Of a DNA stretch of 64,000 bases, positions 2,295-43,468 are shown in pieces (the first letter of the stretch is position 1; each line of letters starts with the position of its first letter). The notes beneath the pieces were generated by a model that saw only the letters and a program-made list of their open reading frames with translations, was not told the DNA's origin and searched no databases. The DNA is from Rhizophagus irregularis. Its lineage: Eukaryota; Glomeromycota; Glomeromycetes; Glomerales; Glomeraceae. The translations under genes were made by a program, and so were the position numbers. The stretch covers positions 1,736,001-1,800,000 of the forward strand of contig NC_089449.1 of assembly GCF_026210795.1 (NCBI RefSeq). Reading direction: 5' to 3'.

Positions 2295-3014
2295 CTAGTC
2301 ACAATGATGGTGTGCCACAACTGTCTTTTCAAATTTTCGCAATTGCTCCACAAATCCCTGATTGGGTTTCACATTTGGTCTCTTCTCTTTAACTAAATTA
2401 AATGCTTGATTATAATGTATTTTTTGTGAATTCATCAGGTAGGCAATTACGATCGATGTAGATCGGCTTATTCCAGCTAGACAATGAACATAGACACGAC
2501 CGTTTGTTGACTTTGCGTTCTCGATAAAATCAATACATTCATGAAAATGTTTAGATATATTGGACGATGGGTCGTCCGTAATATTTATCTTGAGATACCT
2601 GAGAGGAACGATTTCATTATCTACCACTTTATCATTAATTTCATTTTCTACCGCTTTATCAATAAATTTATTATCTACCGCTTTACCAATAACAACAATT
2701 CCATTATCTATCACTTTATCCCCGATTTCATTACTCTCATTTGATGAGTCATTACTTTTTTTCAAAGACTGCTCTGAATCTTTAATTTGTTTTTTTTGTT
2801 GATCCAAAAACTTTAATATTTTTTCTTCAGTTTCCCAATAATTCGAACCACCAGATAAATTGATAACGTGAGTTATTTTATTAGATAAAAGGTGCGGAAA
2901 CCAACGAGCAGTTTTTGCATCACCCAAATAAAGAAATTCTGGGATAATAATATTGGGCGTGTTGCTACCTTTTGCCCCCGTTAAAGTTATATAGTCTAGT
3001 AGGTAGGAAGACAT
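2295..3014 (-). CDS. Dual-specificity protein phosphatase (DUSP) with repetitive insert
   Basis: A single-exon, 239-residue cysteine-based phosphatase expected to dephosphorylate Ser/Thr/Tyr residues. The P-loop HCLAGISRS (residues 177-185) gives the nucleophile Cys178 and the phosphate-binding Arg184, and the following STSIVIAYLM is typical of DUSPs. Asp147 or Asp148 in the NITDDPSSNI stretch is the likely general acid. The N-terminal core (FLYLGDAKTARW, residues 27-38, then THVINLSGG) is also typical. Between the core strands, residues ~70-136 form an insert rich in Lys, Asp, Asn and Glu, made of degenerate repeats around VDN-I-DK-VE, encoded by ~36-39-bp tandem DNA repeats. This makes it longer than the ~150-residue catalytic core. 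No transmembrane or signal segment is seen. The start ATG is the first in frame and leaves only a short leader before the core. Confidence 0.93.
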   Translation of the reverse strand: MSSYLLDYITLTGAKGSNTPNIIIPEFLYLGDAKTARWFPHLLSNKITHVINLSGGSNYWETEEKILKFLDQQKKQIKDSEQSLKKSNDSSNESNEIGDKVIDNGIVVIGKAVDNKFIDKAVENEINDKVVDNEIVPLRYLKINITDDPSSNISKHFHECIDFIENAKSTNGRVYVHCLAGISRSTSIVIAYLMNSQKIHYNQAFNLVKEKRPNVKPNQGFVEQLRKFEKTVVAHHHCD

Positions 3015-3148
3015 AATTCTTTTTTATTTAATTCTGCAAAGTATGAGACAACACGGTTTTGAATGTACATTTACCGTTTTTAATTGGATGATTCACATGA
3101 CGTACGACTTTTGTTATTAACTAAAAATGCCGTGCAACATATATCAAT

Positions 3149-12935: not shown

Positions 12936-13747
12936 CAGTCAACTCCCTCTATAGTCACTCCTGTTATAGTCACATTCTACTATATAGTCACACCAGTTGA
13001 ATGTTCAAAACACTTTATTATTAAAATCTATCCTATATAGTCACAATCTATCTATAGTCACTATCACACCTATCCTCAAAAATCTTATATTAAAAAGAAC
13101 CGTTTATAATCACAGTTATATAAAGAATATATTAAATAACTTGGCATCTAATAATCGTACAAAGATGTATCATAGCTTGTTAGAATCGTCTCACTGAGAC
13201 GAATTGAATGGTGGTAGTTTTATCCTTTTCCGATCACTGGCTGACGAGTTATTCAACAAAATGTTAAACATCAGCATTATAATATTTCTTGATTTACGTT
13301 TACTGCGCCATTTAACATTTTGCTAGATTTCTCGGTACCTAGTGATTGTAAAAAGACGATTTATAGCTCGTTGGAATCGCCTCATCGAGACGAATCGAAT
13401 GGTAGTAAGATCGTCTTTCTAGGATCAATATTGGCAGAGTTATTACACAAAAACCATTAATATTTTTTAATTCAGAAATTAATCTAGTGATTGGATTTCG
13501 ACGCATTTTATACCATTAGAACCGTCTCATCAAGACGAATCGAATGGCGGTAAGATCATCTCTCTACAATTAATACTGGCGAAGTTACGATATAATAAAG
13601 TTTTAAGTATAATTCTGGCTAAAATTATGTTAATTTTTGGCCGGAATTATGATATACAAATATAAGAAATTTTTTATATAGTCACATCTCTTTATAATCA
13701 CCAAATATGGACTGTCCCAAATGTGTGACTATAAAGAGAGTTGACTG
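12936..13747 (+). mobile_element. Non-autonomous TA-flanked DNA element, copy B (uninterrupted reference copy)
   Basis: TA flanks at 12934-12935 and 13748-13749 and ~25-bp terminal inverted repeats (CAGTCAACTCCCTCTATAGT and its partner). About 812 bp, with no coding region conserved by function. Inside are repeats of a palindromic motif around CGTCTCATCGAGACGAATCG, each followed by GAATGG. This copy shows the target sequence TAGTTTTATCCTTTTC (near 13215-13230) uninterrupted, and likewise the LINE target TTATAATCACCAAATAT. Confidence 0.85.
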
Positions 13748-14176
13748 TATTACCATTGAATATAATGAAAAATTTTTGAAGATAATTATATACATTTATA
13801 AAAATTTATTAAATGAAGTTGATCTATTGCAAATTGTTGAAATATGGCTAGTAAATAAATAATGAGCTTTTTTATATATCATTTAATTCTTTAATGATTA
13901 CTAGAGGTGCACCTTAATGACGCGACGTAACCTTAGTAAGTTTCACGTCATGTACGTATAACGCATATAACTCAAGAAGTAAATTTGACGTAACGACGTA
14001 CGCCATAACTTAAGACGCATACCATATTGCAACTTAAAATATAATAAATTGCCAAATTTGACATATGATTTATGAGTTTATTCAATAAATTTGAATTTAA
14101 TACAACAAATTAATAACTAACAAATTAGTTTTCTAAAATTTGGTTAACTAAATCAATAGGACTAAAATCCATATTT

Positions 14177-16527
14177 CTATCTATATTGATTTCTATCTAT
14201 ATTGATTTCTTCATTAGTATTATTATCCACATTTTCTGCATTTTCAAAGATTGGTTGTGTAAAATCAATAATGTCCTCCAATATTAAAGTAGTACGTTCT
14301 TGTGTACCTTCTCTTTCCTGATTTTCCTCTAATAGTAGATAATTAGTATCATTATCATTATCATCTAAAGCAATAATTTCGCAACTGCAGAGGTATTGGC
14401 AACTTCTCTTAATTCTGTTTCATCCAAATGTTTTCCATAATATGATAATTCATTTTTAATGCTTGCTAAGTAATAAGAACGAATTTTAGAAATACCTTCG
14501 AGCTTTTGAACATCAAGCCTTGTGCGTCTATCTCCAATAATCCATTTAAGTACAGAAAAATTTCGTTCACATCCTGCTTGTGAAACAGCAATACAAAATA
14601 AACGAAGTGCAAGATCTCGTAAATAATATGGTTTACTTCTTATAGAACTCCACCATAATTCGGGTGTATCCATATTTTTATCATAAGATAAATCATAAGG
14701 TTTAAGTTTTTGATCATATTTTCGGAATTGAGTAGAAGTTCTCTTACATTCTTGTTCAGAATATCCTAAATTTTGCCAGAGAGTTGTGGCAGTTATTGCT
14801 GCATTTCTAAATCCTTCATCATTAAGTCCTAGACCTAAAAAATCAAAATAATTTTTAGCAATAATGATTTTAATAATTAACTGAAAAATAGTAAATACCT
14901 CGATAATAAGGGTGAAGAAAATAACATAATAAGTAAGCAGGATGCTGAAATTCAAGATAACGATGATTAAAAATCTGAATTGCTGAAGCTTTAAAGGGAT
15001 TTGATGAAGGGAGACGAAATATAGCAATTGCTAATTTGATCATTTGCACGAAACAATCAGCTAAAGAAGCTGATTTTGCTGCAAGGATATTAATGCATTC
15101 CTTGATGGGAGCCCAAATTGAACGAATATGATGACAATTTGTAAAAAATTCTTCATCTTGAATTAAGAGATAAACGTTTGAATTTGTAACAATACCATTA
15201 TGTTCTAATAAAATCTATAGTATTTAATTGTTAGAATTATTATATAAAATAAAGAATATTAATAAACAATCAAAAAAATTATCTCACCCAGTCAAAAACA
15301 GGACGCGCACATAAAATTGAATCTGCTGTCATATACAATGAACCCCATCTAGTCTTACACCATATTTGTAATCTCTCAATATTAATCTTCATATCTTTTA
15401 AACCTTAAGCTAAAATTGCAGAACCTTGATGTGAATTATTAAAAAACCCTGTAATCATCCCACAATTTGAGATAAATTTCTTTATATCATTAAGTTTTAC
15501 TAAATCAGCTGCTATCAAGTTAATAGCATGAGCTGCATATCGTATATCCCAAATATGACCATATTTTTCTTCTATTATTCTTCTAGCAACTCGACAATTG
15601 GAAGCATTGTCGGTGACAACAGCTGTAAATTTGTCTAAACCAATTTTCTCTACAATATCTGATATTTCTGAAGCAAGAAATTCTCCTGTATGTGATTCCA
15701 TAGAATAATTGCGTAAAGCAACTAAATATTCTTTTCTATCGGAAGTTGTTATGACATAATTGTAAAGTGATTCATTTCGTTTGGATGTCCAACCATCCAA
15801 TGCTAATTATAAAATAAATGATGAGAATTAATAAATTAAAATAACTAATTAATAATTAACATAATTTAAAAATTAAAATTTCTTACTTAAAGTTAAACTA
15901 TCTGCTATCTCCAATTCAGATGTAACCTTTTTATTAACACGCGAAATTTCTTCATTTAAAAGTCTACCAGACAAAGTAGTTCGAGATGGAGGGATATATG
16001 CTGGATTTAAATTTTTGAATAAATCCAAAACAAAGGGAAAGGGATTCTCAACAACTTCAAAAGGAATCCTGCCATCATATCGCCTTTAATAAAGAACAAT
16101 CAATACGGTTATTTATTTCAGGAGGAAGTGGCTCATCTGAACTAAAATGGTTTACAATTTTGGTTTGTTTGTACTGAGGCTTTGGAATTTGGGTTTGATC
16201 TTGTGAAAAATGCATCTTTCAGGTGTAATTCACCGTATTTTCAGCAAGTTTATCACGCCAATATTTGCTAATATCTTCAGGACATGCCAAACATTCATTT
16301 GCCAAGTGAGCTTTTAAAGCTACTGGCCTTCCCCTTGACCACTCCTTTTTGCAATGATAACACGTAGCTTTATAATGACCTGGATTTAATTCTTCTCCTT
16401 GAGTAAAATATTGCCATACTTCATCAAATTTTGGGCCTCCTTTATTAGCTTTCTTTCGTGAAAGAGGAGTTTTGGATAAAGTGTCATTACTGCGTTTTTG
16501 TAAATCAGTTCTAGCTGTTTCTGTCAT
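14177..16527 (-). pseudogene. hAT transposase, left copy (BED finger, RNase-H-like core, dimerisation domain)
   Basis: Starts at ATG 16525-16527. A BED-type zinc finger comes first (KFDEVWQYF, then CYHC, then HLANEC, with the Cys/Cys/His/Cys set intact). The catalytic-core region follows, with LDGWTSKRNE and TAVVTDNASNC (15405-15800). The C-terminal hAT dimerisation block lies in 14365-15027 (ELWWSSIRS, SQAGCERNFSVLKWI, RRTRL). Short introns separate the parts, e.g. near 15808-15885 and 15215-15290. In-frame stops (TGA after NTVNYT near 16219 and TAA after GSAILA near 15405) plus frameshifts make it non-functional. Both stops are shared by the right copy, so the ancestor was already dead and was moved in trans. 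Most similar in type to DUF659/BED hAT transposases. Confidence 0.88.
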
Positions 16528-16889
16528 AATGAGTTGTAGGTCGTGACACGTAAAACAAAAGAAAGAAGTAAATTTCACGTTTATCGAATTTATTATGATT
16601 TATTATAAAAATAGAATCAGCATAACGCATTGTACTCCACAAGCATGCATTTAAAAAAATTTTTTAATAAAAAAGTATTTTTCGCAGAGATAAGATACAA
16701 TTTATTATCAAGTTACGTCAAATACAATGCGTCATACGTCACACTTTGCGTCAAATGTCATTAATTACGGCATTAGCTAGCATTATGTCAAACGTCACGA
16801 GTTGTAACATGCGTTATCCAGACGCATGTCATATAATACTACGTACGCAATGTTATAACCCATAAGGGGAGGGATAATTGTTACCTCTA

Positions 16890-16897
16890 GAAAAATA
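16890..16897. repeat. Octamer GAAAAATA abutting an inner hAT terminus
   Basis: The octamer directly follows the inner 5' terminus (TTACCTCTA ending 16889). Its reverse complement TATTTTTC directly follows the inner 3' terminus (19669-19676) and is present at its native place in the left copy (16676-16683). Eight bases is the hAT target-duplication length; here the duplicate is inverted rather than direct. Confidence 0.9.
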
Positions 16898-17045
16898 CTT
16901 TTTTATTAAAAAATTTTTTAAATGCATGCTTGTGGAGTACAATGCGTTATGCTGATCCTATTTTTATAATAAATCATAATAAATTCGATAAACGTGAAAT
17001 TTACTTCTTTCTTTTTGTTTTACGTGTCACGACCTACAACTCATT

Positions 17046-19380
17046 ATGACAGAAACAGCTAGAACTGATTTACAAAAACGCAGTAATGACACTTTATCCA
17101 AAACTCCTCTTTCACGAAAGAAAGCTAATAAAGGAGGCCCAAAATTTGATGAAGTATGGCAATATTTTATCTCGGATAAGAATTAAATCCAGGTCATTAT
17201 AAAAGCTACGTGTTATCATTGCAAAAAGAATGTCATGAAGGCCAGTAGCTTTAAAAGCTCACTTGGCAAATGAATGTTTGGCATGTCCCGAAGATATTAG
17301 CAAATATTGGCGTGATAAACTTGCTGAAAATACGGTGAATTACACCTGAAAGATGCATTTTTCACAAGATCAAACCCAAATTCCAAAGCCTCAGCACAAA
17401 CAAACCAAAATTGTAAACCATTTTAGTTCAGATGACCACTTCCTCCTGAAATAAATAACCGTATTGATTGTTCTTTATTAAAGGCATGGGTGATGGCAGG
17501 GATTCCTTTTGAAGTTGTTCGGGAATCCCTTTCGTTTTGGATTTATTCAAAAATTTAAATCCAGCATATATCCCTCCATCTCGAACTACTTTGTCTGGTA
17601 GACTTTTAAATGAAGAAATTTCGCGTGTTAATAAAAAGGTTACATCTGAATTGGAGATAGCAGATAGTTTAACTTTAAGTAAGAAATTTTAATTTTTAAA
17701 TTATGTTAATTATTAATTAGTTATTTTAATTTATTAATTCTCATCATTTATTTTATAATTAGCATTGGATGGTTGGACATCCAAACGAAATGAATCACTT
17801 TACAATTATGTCATAACAACTTCCGATAGAAAAGAATATTTAGTTGCTTTACGCAATTATTCTATGGAATCACATACGGAGAATTTCTTCACTTCGAAAT
17901 ATCAGATATTGTAGAGAAAATTGGTTTAGACAAATTTACAGCTGTTGTCACTGACAATGCTTCCAATTGTCGAGTTGCTAGAAGAATAATAGAAGAAAAA
18001 TATGGTCGTATTTGGGATATACGATATGCAGCTCGTACTATTAACTTGATAGCAGCTGATTTAGTAAAACTTAATGATATAAAGAAATTTATCTCAAATT
18101 GTGGGATGATTACAGGGTTTTTTAATAATTCACATCAAGGTTCTGCAATTTTAGCTTAAGGTTTAAAAGATATGAAGATTAATATTGAGAGATTACAAAT
18201 ATGGTGTAAGACTAGATGGGTTTCATTGTATATGACAGCAGATTCAATTTTATGTGCGCGTCCTGTTTTTGACTGGGTGAGATAATTTTTTTGATTGTTT
18301 ATTAATATTCTTTATTTTATATAATAATTCTAACAATTAAATACTATAGATTTTATTAGAACATAATGGTATTGTTACAAATTCAAACGTTTATCTCTTA
18401 ATTCAAGATGAAGAATTTTTTACAAATTGTCATCATATTCGTTCAATTTGGGCTCCCATCAAGGAATGCATTAATATCCTTGAAGCAAAATCAGCTTCTT
18501 TAGCTGATTGTTTCGTGCAAATGATCAAATTAGCAATTGCTATATTTCGTCTCCCTTCATCAAATCCCTTTAAAGCTTCAGCAATTCAGATTTTTAATCA
18601 TCGTTATCTTGAATTTCAGCATCCTGCTTACTTATTATGTTATTTTCTTCACCCTTATTATCGAGGTATTTACTATTTTTCAGTTAATTATTAAAATCAT
18701 TATTGCTAAAAATTATTTTGATTTTTTAGGTCTAGGACTTAATGATGAAGGATTTAGAAATGCAGCAATAACTGCCACAACTCTCTGGCAAAATTTAGGA
18801 TATTCTGAACAAGAATGTAGAGAACTTCTTACTCAATTCCGAAAATATGATCAAAAACTTAAACCTTATGATTTATCTTATGATAAAAATATGGATACAC
18901 CCGAATTATGGTGGAGCTCTATAAGAAGTAAAGCCATATTATTTATGAGATCTTGCACTTCGTTTATTTTGTATTGCTGTTTCACAAGCAGGATGTGAAC
19001 GAAATTTTTCTGTACTTAAATGGATTATTGGAGATAGACGCACAAGGCTTGATGTTCAAAAGCTCGAAGGTATTTCTAAAATTCGTTCTTATTACTTAGC
19101 AAGCATTAAAAATGAATTATCATATTATGGAAAACATTTGGATGAAACAGAATTAAGAGAAGTTGCCAATACCTCTGCAGTTGGTGAAATTATTGCTTTA
19201 GATGATAATGATAATGATACTAATTATCTACTATTAGAGGAAAATCAGGAAAGAGAAGGTACACAAGAACGTACTACTTTAATATTGGAGGACATTATTG
19301 ATTTTACACAACCAATCTTTGAAAATGCAGAAAATGTGGATAATAATCTAATGAAGAAATCAATATAGATAGAAATCAAT
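17046..19380 (+). pseudogene. hAT transposase, right (inverted) copy
   Basis: Same gene as the left copy, in opposite orientation, from ATG 17046. It keeps the shared TGA (after NTVNYT, near 17348) and TAA (after GSAILA, near 18157). It adds its own damage: the BED finger is scrambled around 17170-17245 and small indels occur near 17490-17530 and 18935. The dimerisation block survives in pieces (18537-18998, then SQAGCERNFSVLK in another frame near 18985, and 19138-19368). The C-terminal tail EVANTSAVGEIIALDDNDND with the acidic run is better preserved here than on the left. Confidence 0.87.
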
Positions 19381-19889
19381 ATAGATAGAAATATGGATTT
19401 TAGTCCTATTGATTTAGTTAACCAAATTTTAGAAAACTAATTTGTTAGTTATTAATTTGTTGTATTAAATTCAAATTTATTGAATAAACTCATAAATCAT
19501 ATGTCAAATTTGGCAATTTATTATATTTTAAGTTACGGCAATATGGTATGCGTCTTAAGTTATGGCATACGTCATTACGTCAAATTTACTCGAGCTTACA
19601 TGCATTATACGTTTCCTACGACGCGACTTAACTTGCGTTACGTCACGTACAGTAAAACTGCACCTCTATATTTTTCGCAGAGATAAGATACAATTTATTA
19701 TCAAGTTACGTCAAATACAATGCGTCGTATGCGCCTTTGCGTCGATGTCATTAATTACGGCGTTGGCGGTACCGCCGTTATGTCAGCCGATAAGCAGGTT
19801 GTAACGTGCGTTATCCGACGCATGTCATATGACGCGTAACTGCAATTATAACCAGTAGGGAGGGATAAGGCTGCACCTCTAATGATTAC

Positions 19890-39908: not shown

Positions 39909-41180
39909 TTTTAATAAGCAAAGAAGCTTTGAAGAAATATATATGAAGAATTAATATTTACAAGACTTGCATTATCTTTTTTCTTAAAATAATATTACCT
40001 TAATAGCAGATAAGAGTAAACAAAAAATTTCAGTAAGCTTTTATATTTATCGCACATTTTCATGTTTTTTTGTTGTTACGTCATCGACACGTAGAGACGC
40101 GATTTTTCCATGTTCATGTGACTTGAAGTTCATTAGTATTTTCCCGTGTACTGTGTAACTATTTTCCATATAAAATTAATGCACGTAGAGGTCAAAGATT
40201 CATATTTTTTCTTTATTGTAAGAAAAATAACATGATTTTTCTTGAAATATATCCTAATATTATACAAAAAAAAGTTTAAATAATATATTAGCATTACATT
40301 ATACTTTAAGTCTTTAACCTTTTAATAAAGTACTTGTTCTTATAAATTTTAACTTTTAATTTGAATAGTTATATACCAATTTTAATAATATGCAAACTAC
40401 AACATTTAAAAATATGTTAACTATTAATAAAAAAAGCTAAATAAAGTATATAAAGTTATAAAAGTGTTAAAAAAAATATAGAATTATACAGTATGATATT
40501 TTTATAATAAAATATTAAGTTTTATATATATTTTTTTATCTTTTTTTTACCATATTTGTTTATTAACTATCTATCAACTATCTATTATTTATTCTGATAA
40601 CTCTATATGTATAATATTAACAGCTGTATAGATAGACTATAGTATTAGTAAAAATCTGTACAAAAAATTAAAACTCTACTAAATTTTCTAATAATTCTAT
40701 AAAGTTTATTTATTAATTAGCAAAATGTCATGTTAATCTATTTAGCTGCATTTGATATTAAGATTTAATATCCAAATAATAACATGTAATTAACAAGTGT
40801 TAACTAAAATTAAAATAAATTTTCCAACTTATATTACTTCTTTTTATTGAATAATACTATAAACATCTTCATACAAAAATATTACCTTCTCTAAATTTAA
40901 TGGTAAATTTTATATATATATGACTTAAAGTAAGTCTTTGAACACTTTCAGCAATACTGACAGCTATTTGAACTTAATATTTAGAATTTTAATTTATCTG
41001 GCTACACTACTTTATTCCAGTTAAGTTTTTATATATTTTTGCAAAATTTAAATATTTCTTAGTATTTTTTTATTAGTAATAACTTCTTATATTTTACTCG
41101 AGCTACTAAACTATTTCTTTTTAATACCCTATGTATTATATTTATACAAAGCTTTAGTATTATTATTATTATTTCAAGTT
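39909..41180. other. Intergenic DNA upstream of the kinesin gene
   Basis: AT-rich with no gene. The right edge is the hairpin element at 41181. Confidence 0.5.
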
Positions 41181-41459
41181 AAAAACCAATATATCGGGTA
41201 GCAGATATGTATCAGATATGTACCCAATATGTGTAGTATTAATGCAGAAAATCGGGTACCCGATATGTGTAAGATATGTGTAAATATATATATCGTCTAC
41301 ATATCATTTACATATCATATACATATCGGTACCCGATATGTATATGATATATATATTTACATATATCTTACACATATCGGGTACCCGATTTTCTGCATTA
41401 ATACTACACATATTGGGTACATATCTGATACATATCTGCTACCCGATATATTGGTTTTT
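41181..41459. repeat. Near-perfect ~280-bp palindrome (GATATGTG hairpin family)
   Basis: AAAAACCAATATATCGGGTA at the left end and its reverse complement at the right bound two ~135-bp arms that pair almost without mismatch around CATATCGGTACCCGATATG (centre ~41323). Inner words such as TCGGGTACCCGATATGTGTA and ATGTGTAGTATTAATGCAGA recur as inverted partners. Degenerate copies lie at 20405-20955 and 22030-22275. No ORF. Confidence 0.85.
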
Positions 41460-43468
41460 GACCAGTGTTAATCATTAAAAATTTAAAACTGAACTGTATT
41501 AGAACATTAATTTGTTATTATACTTCTTATAATATTATATTCATTATATTCATTTAATAAATATAAACAGTCTAAACAGATTTATTTTCAACTTTACCTA
41601 TTTCTTTATATTTTACAATAGTTGTATAGCTTTTATAATCAACTTTAATGGCAATTTTCTTACTATATACCTCTTTTTAAATAATATAATAACTTGAGCT
41701 TTCTGTTCAATAAATAATTAGAACTTAAAAATAATTATAAATAAAAACATTTTTTTTTAAAGAGTATATATAAAAAAAATATAAATTTTTTATAAATATT
41801 ATTACATAAAATATAAAAAAATTTTAAAACATTGTTTTTTACATTTTTTACAAAGTATCAAAAAGAACACATCATAATTTTGAAGAAAAAAATAATATAA
41901 GCAATAATTGTATAATACAAAAAGAGTTTTTTATTTAATTTTAAAGATCTACAGGCATTCGGCAAAAATAATAACAGTCAGTTTTTTTAATATAGCATAT
42001 AAATTTTATAATAAAGCTATAAAATTTTTTTTTATTTTCAAGAAGAAGAGTCAAAAATACATATATTTTATTATTTGATAAATATTTGGTTTGCCCTCTA
42101 TTTGCATCAATACATACTTCAATTTGATTTTGCGTGCTTTATTACCAATAACCTTGCTATTAATAATTATGCTATTTTCAAAATTATTTTACTTTTTTCT
42201 AAATAAATTGAAAAATAGCTTGTAATTTTTTTTTTTTTGTATTACCATCTTTTTAATATACTGCTTCAAAAACAATCAAAAGTTCTCATTATAATCTGAG
42301 ATTTGGACTTCAAAATTATTATGAAAACTCACTATTGAAAGACAAATTTTCATACCAACTTAAATACTATGAAAATTGTTATTTTATATCTCTATTATAA
42401 TAATAAGCTTATCAATAGCTTAAAAAATTATTTGGTAAGTCAAAAATACACATATTTTAAAGTTTTCTTATTAAGAATTAAAATAATGTAAAAATGATCA
42501 TTATTTCAATTTGGCAATATTTTTTATGATGTAGTTTTAGTATTGACATTTAAAATAAAAATATTTAGAATTTTGGTATTTTTTATAAGAGATGTATATA
42601 TTGCTTACAGAAATGCAAAAAAAGTTTAATTCAATTAGAAAATTCCCAAAAATTTGTTTTAAAAAAAAGTTAATACTCTCATATATAAATTTAATTGTAA
42701 TGAGAGCTATTTTGAATAATAAAAAAAAATAATGTTAATATTTGAAATTACTTTTTTTTCATTGCTTTTTAAATGAGCATTTCACTGTTTAATTTGATAT
42801 AAAAAGTAATGCTTTAATTAGAATAGTTATGAAGTTATGATTAAATTAAGAAGTGGTATTCTCATTACCATTATTTTCACCAGAGATTGTATATTTATAT
42901 TACTTATTTTGAAAATATTAAACTAATTAGATTATTTTAATTAGTAGATATAATAATTTTGTGATTTATAAATTTTAATACATTTTTTTTAAAAGTCACT
43001 ATATATATATATATAATTTAGATTGGTATTTTAGAATTACCATTCATATTTACTAATAAATTCATCTACTTAAAAATGTAAAATATAGATATTAAATTTC
43101 AATTTGGATTAAAAAATTGGCCAGATTACAGATCAAAATACTAGTTTATTTTAATTACACAATATTTATTGAAATTATAATTAGTTATTATTTTTGTTAT
43201 ATTTATTTATATATTAAAATTTTAATTTTTTTATTAAAAAAAATTAAAACAGATTACTAAAAATATTATTTACTATTTAATAAGGTAGTGATATATACAG
43301 TTTATCCTTCTTATAGCAAATTTTGATATAACAAATCACATGACACTTAGCCAATAAAATATGTCAATTTTCCTTCACTATAACAAAGTAACCAATCAAA
43401 TTCTTCAAAGTTCAAATTCTTCATTAACTTGCTATAATGAATTTGAGGTAGTACTGTAAGGTTTTTAT
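41460..43468. other. AT-rich intergenic DNA
   Basis: Poly-A/T runs, no coding region and no clear transposon boundary. Confidence 0.5.

Follow-up and report, generated by a model that had tools for sequence, protein, structure and literature searches.

Among the closest described systems are the Ac/Ds elements of maize, for which two forms of alternative transposition, sister-chromatid transposition (SCT) and reversed-ends transposition, have been reported, while three rearrangements at other hAT elements of the maize reference genome have been named from their structure (PMC3744419). Here we describe a composite hAT element of Rhizophagus irregularis, located at positions 13902-19881 of a 64,000-nucleotide stretch of DNA (C21:1736001-1800000, referred to below as the window), in which two 2.77-kb inverted arms flank a loop of 222 bp (16676-16897). 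We judge, with slightly better than even confidence, that this arrangement results from an ordinary nested self-insertion followed by inversion of the loop rather than from SCT. As in the products of maize Ac/Ds, hAT ends occur together with 8-bp target duplications at the junctions and with duplications beside the element and, as for the three other maize cases, an assignment from structure in a reference genome is attempted (PMC3744419). Unlike the composite, the maize cases involve duplication of the chromosomal DNA beside the element by reversed-ends transposition, and reciprocal deletions were recovered (PMC3744419). At the locus described here, the element itself holds the target, the same segment order can be reached by a simpler route, and a reciprocal product is not known.

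The double Ds of maize is made of one Ds inserted in another in the opposite orientation, with the ordinary orientation and the direct octamers kept. The composite is likewise a hAT element lying inverted within its own copy but differs in that the loop between its arms is reversed. In R. irregularis, elements named hAT-19, hAT-Ac and hAT-Tag1 have been reported (PMC11075540), and no description of the composite locus was found in the portions of the literature covered, which deal with the assembly of this species, with alternative transposition in maize and fungi and with hAT elements of Rhizophagus.

The window belongs to the nanopore assembly of DAOM197198 (GCA_026210795.1), which was produced with Shasta from MinION R9.4.1 rapid-kit reads having an N50 of 24,957 bp and was polished with both nanopore and Illumina reads to Q36.27 (PMC10234402). 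Genome searches covered 146,748,485 bases in 32 contigs from one strain.

Structure of the composite element

The segments of the composite occur in the order TSD - X1 - oct - Y1 / oct' - X2' / oct - Y2 - TSD, where TSD is the outer target-site duplication, X corresponds to 13902-16675, oct to the octamer TATTTTTC and Y to the remainder up to the R terminus, primes denoting inverted segments. The corresponding features, in window coordinates, are listed below.

13894..13901, plus strand: left copy of the outer target-site duplication, ATGATTAC, 8/8 identical to the right copy
13902..16675, plus strand: arm X1, L terminus TAGAGGTGCA and element body, with the transposase on the minus strand
16676..16897, no strand: loop of 222 bp separating the inverted arms
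16676..16683, plus strand: octamer TATTTTTC in its native context, internal target site
16684..16889, plus strand: Y1, terminal segment on the transposase-5' side, with the degenerate R terminus GTTACCTCTA at its end
16890..16897, minus strand: inverted octamer, GAAAAATA
16898..19668, minus strand: arm X2, a copy of X in inverse orientation, with an L terminus at its end (plus-strand reading TGCACCTCTA)
19669..19676, plus strand: octamer TATTTTTC, second direct copy
19677..19881, plus strand: Y2, the other terminal segment, with the R terminus TGCACCTCTA at its end
19882..19889, plus strand: right copy of the outer target-site duplication, ATGATTAC

The outer element starts with TAGAGGTGCA at 13902 and ends with TGCACCTCTA at 19881, and the octamers at the inner junctions read, in order, TATTTTTC, GAAAAATA and TATTTTTC. 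A preliminary description of the locus, drawn from the letters alone, had reported outer ends at 13902 and 19881 with a perfect 8-bp duplication, a terminus at 16889 immediately followed by GAAAAATA (16890-16897), another at 19668 immediately followed by TATTTTTC (19669-19676) and the same octamer in its native context at 16676-16683, all of which were recovered here. The leftover 5' terminal segment that it placed at 19669-19881 is right in kind but only 75-80% identical to 16676-16889. The R terminus at 16889 is degenerate, with GTTACCTCTA matching TGCACCTCTA at 7/10 positions. There is a high probability that the composite structure is real.

The element is a member of the hAT superfamily, with transposase domains, an 8-bp duplication and, at each of the four composite termini, the motif TAGAG or its complement CTCTA. 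Short terminal inverted repeats of hAT elements begin with a YARNG-type motif. Pfam scoring of arm 2 covered the DUF659 and dimerisation pieces, and the domains are as follows.

16219..16599, minus strand: BED zinc finger (PF02892), arm 1, 22.7 bits (cut-off 20.6)
15405..15806, minus strand: DUF659 (PF04937), arm 1, 76 bits (cut-off 34.7)
14365..15030, minus strand: hAT C-terminal dimerisation domain (PF05699), arm 1, 25.1 bits (cut-off 21.4)
17830..18159, plus strand: DUF659 (PF04937), arm 2, 46.9 bits (cut-off 34.7)
18949..19368, plus strand: piece of the hAT dimerisation region (PF05699), arm 2, 19.9 bits, below the cut-off of 21.4

Domains scoring above their cut-offs bear out the hAT identity proposed in the preliminary description and, since the arm 1 transposase lies on the minus strand, Y corresponds to the terminal segment on the 5' side of the transposase.

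A genome search with 13902-16889 returned 34 matches and, beyond the composite, three of them span nearly the entire query. These are single elements with termini that are the same or nearly the same as those of the composite, and are found at C5:2628094-2631062 (2969 bp, 97% identical to the query), C7:2367709-2370949 (3241 bp, 96%) and C9:4735530-4738568 (3039 bp, 82%); they are designated below by their contigs. Perfect 8-bp duplications flank C7 (TTCTTTCC) and C9 (ATAATTAC), and that of C5 matches at 6/8 positions (GTTCTATC/GTTACATC). The native context of TATTTTTC is the same in C5, is deleted in C7 and is different in C9. In contrast to the composite, these single copies lack an inverted arm, and C7 bears a nested insert of a different kind: an element of 289 bp near its R end (locus L039, C7:2367500-2371500), with ends TAGTGTTTGGAAT/ATTCCAAACACTA and a perfect 8-bp duplication TTATAACC, which indicates that ordinary nested insertion into the hAT family of the composite occurs in this genome.

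Segment order and loop orientation

Eight products of a single element were enumerated, namely ordinary insertion on either strand, the opposite-strand product with a later inversion via the X or the Y arms, and SCT with either sister as the target and both joinings. Two of the eight fit the locus, and with an identical order: SCT in which the sister giving the L end also carries the target, and opposite-strand ordinary insertion followed by inversion through the X arms. The SCT product and the product of an ordinary opposite-strand insertion at TATTTTTC differ solely in which way round the 222-bp loop lies and, because this loop lies between 2.77-kb inverted repeats, SCT and nested insertion with a loop flip yield the same order. 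The inverted octamer is therefore not diagnostic of SCT. When 16676-16897 is reversed in silico, the junctions read TATTTTTC, TAGAGGTAACAA...ACTGCACCTCTA, TATTTTTC, that is, a perfect direct 8-bp duplication round an opposite-strand copy, and a canonical nested insertion is restored; the direct duplication of an ordinary nested insertion is present only once the loop has been reversed. The enumeration thus agrees with the earlier argument that SCT into TATTTTTC predicts the order of the locus, and contradicts the companion claim that ordinary insertion is unable to give this structure, since opposite-strand insertion plus loop inversion leads to the same order.

In the explanation favoured here, a hAT element residing at ATGATTAC would have received a second copy of the same lineage at the internal TATTTTTC, in the opposite orientation and by ordinary cut-and-paste, the likeliest source of this copy being a hop from the replicated sister. 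The product of such a nested insertion would be X-oct-(Y'-oct'-X')-oct-Y, in which the octamer is directly repeated, as is normal. Recombination between the arms would then have turned the loop oct-Y1-oct' round, or the assembler would have misoriented it, to give X-oct-Y-oct'-X'-oct-Y. In budding yeast, spontaneous recombination between inverted repeats yields gene conversion and spacer inversion (PMC8748988), and an assembler provided with poor reads of the second arm could perhaps misorient a loop of 222 bp.

Divergence between the arms

Aligned with each other, the arms (13902-16683 versus 16890-19668) match at 2691 of 2795 columns, the rest being 75 mismatches and 29 gap columns, which is far above chance. 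That of oct+Y2 (19669-19881) with oct+Y1 (16676-16889) gives 165 matches, 41 mismatches and 15 gap columns, corresponding to 75% identity when gap columns are counted and to 80% without them. Divergence between the arms reaches ca. 25% in the terminal segments and is below 2% inside (mismatches with gap columns excluded: 26/99 at the L end, 45/2659 in the interior and 42/168 in Y). Uniform divergence, from which the preliminary description had expected to date one event, is thus not observed, a failure that may be due to base-calling error.

In the interior of X (alignment columns 110-2900, with the state found in both C5 and C7 as reference), the two arms have in common 18 substitutions, none within 5 bp of another, and a tandem duplication of 16 bp, so that they had a joint history separate from C5 and C7. 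When the C5/C7 state is taken as ancestral, 15 of these 18 substitutions are C-to-T or G-to-A. The outgroup C9 displays the C5/C7 state at 15 of the sites and the arm state at three, for which the change may therefore have taken place on the other side. Isolated differences between the arms in this interval are limited to 15 columns, nine of them substitutions, and the separation of the arms, or the last conversion between them, consequently looks recent. The two arms carry the 16-bp tandem duplication (14173-14210, mirrored at 19355-19392), which C5, C7 and C9 lack and which serves as a lineage marker.

Substitutions private to one arm are distributed differently. They number 16 in arm 1 and 28 in arm 2 for the same interior, with neighbour distances of 5 bp or less in 10/15 and 16/27 cases, respectively, and either value was reached in 0 of 20,000 random placements. 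Over this interval, C5 has 10 private substitutions with no such distance and C7 has 19 with one. C-to-T or G-to-A changes represent 13/44 of the arm-private substitutions versus 15/18 of the arm-common ones (Fisher p 0.00017), a weaker point as the private changes of C7 are mixed too (9/19). In Y, the seven private substitutions of C7 are also adjacent (6 distances), at a place where the 289-bp insert disturbs the alignment.

Towards the ends, C5 and C7 differ from each other at 2/102 positions of the L end and at 3/140 in Y (columns 2935-3090). In the same two regions, the differences from C5 amount to 16/101 and 8/146 for arm 1, and to 14/100 and 28/141 for arm 2 with Y2. At 22 of 25 sites with a substitution private to Y2, C9 agrees with the family, and at two with Y2, so that Y2 looks derived rather than ancestral; among 14 sites with private substitutions in the arm 1 L end, C9 agrees with the family at nine and with arm 1 at three. 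Y1 and Y2 have no substitution in common relative to the C5/C7 state, with only about one expected from the rate in X. An origin of Y2 in an older subfamily was considered and rejected: among the matches listed, none is closer over the whole length than C5 (83%), a 96% match on contig C30 extending over 53 bases only, and the family state dominates in C9. Local palindrome formation as the source of the clusters found no support, the longest stems at 16 arm-specific clusters of at least three edits summing to 64 before and 65 after the changes, as compared with an average of 58.4 for random edits.

Dense changes occupy four terminal stretches (13902-13990, 16734-16889, 19590-19668 and 19729-19868), a density not matched at the L end of C5 or C7. 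The CpG count in Y2 is 18 in 175 bp, versus 9 in C5 and 11 in Y1.

Most of the clustered differences are probably errors of the nanopore consensus. When nanopore reads pass through an inverted duplication, accuracy drops past the junction and bases are miscalled or missed (PMC7229812), and Illumina polishing is unlikely to fix two arms so alike. As a counterpoint, Y2 is the worst stretch yet lies outside the arms, and is not directly predicted by the effect of inverted duplications. A real process acting at the ends of the composite is possible. Whether error or real, the clusters mean that the present letters cannot pass the dating of one event by uniform divergence.

Origin of the composite

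Ordinary nested self-insertion with loop inversion finds support in the enumeration, which reproduces the order of the locus, and in the nested insertion with an 8-bp duplication seen at C7. Changes common to the arms together with nine isolated interior substitutions are expected of arms that are of the same lineage or have been homogenised by conversion. Two points weigh against this explanation: the flip is an extra step that SCT does not need, and the changes common to the arms fit SCT equally well.

A less probable origin, although one to be considered seriously, is SCT itself, in which an L (3') end and an R (5') end supplied by different sisters would have attacked TATTTTTC within the element in a single event and left the other chromatid with an empty site. 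It predicts the observed order directly and in one event, has been described for maize Ac/Ds, likewise of the hAT type, and is in agreement with the lineage-specific changes that the arms have in common. This order is not unique to SCT, however, as nested insertion with loop inversion gives it as well; moreover, uniform divergence fails at face value (26/99, 45/2659 and 42/168), although base-calling error may inflate these values, and Y1 and Y2 are without a common substitution, though about one was to be expected. The fuller proposal of a one-step SCT of the element into itself in Glomeromycotina, with the mutation patches at the four ends being real scars of repeated aberrant cutting, appears more doubtful still.

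A structural assembly artefact, by which chimeric or fold-back nanopore reads would have created the entire composite or its inverted arm, is improbable. The joins sit exactly at two termini with an exact 8-bp overlap, where fold-back chimeras are not expected, the outer duplication is intact and the second terminal segment is present. While the source is a rapid-kit MinION R9.4.1 data set assembled with Shasta (PMC10234402) and nanopore accuracy falls in inverted duplications (PMC7229812), the read N50 of 24,957 bp (PMC10234402) is sufficient to cross 6 kb. Least probable of all is an inverted duplication made in a resident element without transposase, by fold-back or by template switching at a fork. 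Among the mechanisms proposed for inverted duplications in yeast is fold-back priming at breaks (PMC10622511), but such an origin leaves unexplained both the breakpoints at exact terminal bases and the common 8-bp octamer.

Related ends and flanking regions

The preliminary description had suggested a genome scan for further copies with inverted octamers, and no second composite was found among the places inspected in a non-exhaustive survey, the end-pattern searches having returned 19 matches (3 with the reversed-pattern control) and 10 matches (none with the control). One candidate, C6:4472600-4477200 (L071), was rejected; it holds two pieces of diverged relatives on opposite strands, 2.6 kb apart, with one 48-bp inverted match and a local palindrome of 41 bp. 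Three short elements of 185, 93 and 194 bp (L074 on C31, L078 on C18 and L081 on C22, respectively) have the L end of the composite family and are probably non-autonomous relatives; the last two carry 8-bp duplications (GCTACAAC and GTAGAACC) and the first a duplication matching at 7/8 positions. Three diverged L-like ends (L077, C13:4643556; L079, C21:1995223; L080, C21:1998528) are preceded by a common flank, GTATTGTAAT, and may thus belong to a larger repeat; those on C21 point away from each other at a distance of 3.3 kb.

The flanks were also used to search for an empty site elsewhere in the genome. Among the best 40 of 1480 candidates for the left flank, the matches listed end at or before 13778, short of the junction, and among the best 40 of 1214 candidates for the right flank, those listed begin at or after 20184; no empty site appeared among these matches. 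The left flank (13100-13750) is part of a high-copy repeat, with at least 62 matches including its own place (best 40 of the 1480 candidates), many of which stop near 13750. A second inverted repeat of the window (41150-41490) has arms of 156 nt that are 90% complementary and a spacer of 29 nt, and is perhaps a fold-back element.

Implications

The inverted octamers of nested elements are no proof of alternative transposition, and caution is needed more generally because the orientation of a loop between long inverted arms need not record its origin. The locus is a candidate for gauging the flipping of long inverted repeats in Rhizophagus nuclei, as well as for base-quality checks on inverted duplications in a nanopore reference. 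Should SCT prove to be the true origin, a chromosome-rearranging side reaction of the hAT transposase, known from maize, would extend to a fungal lineage in which hundreds of nuclei share one cytoplasm (PMC6281316) and would also be at work in Glomeromycotina chromosomes.

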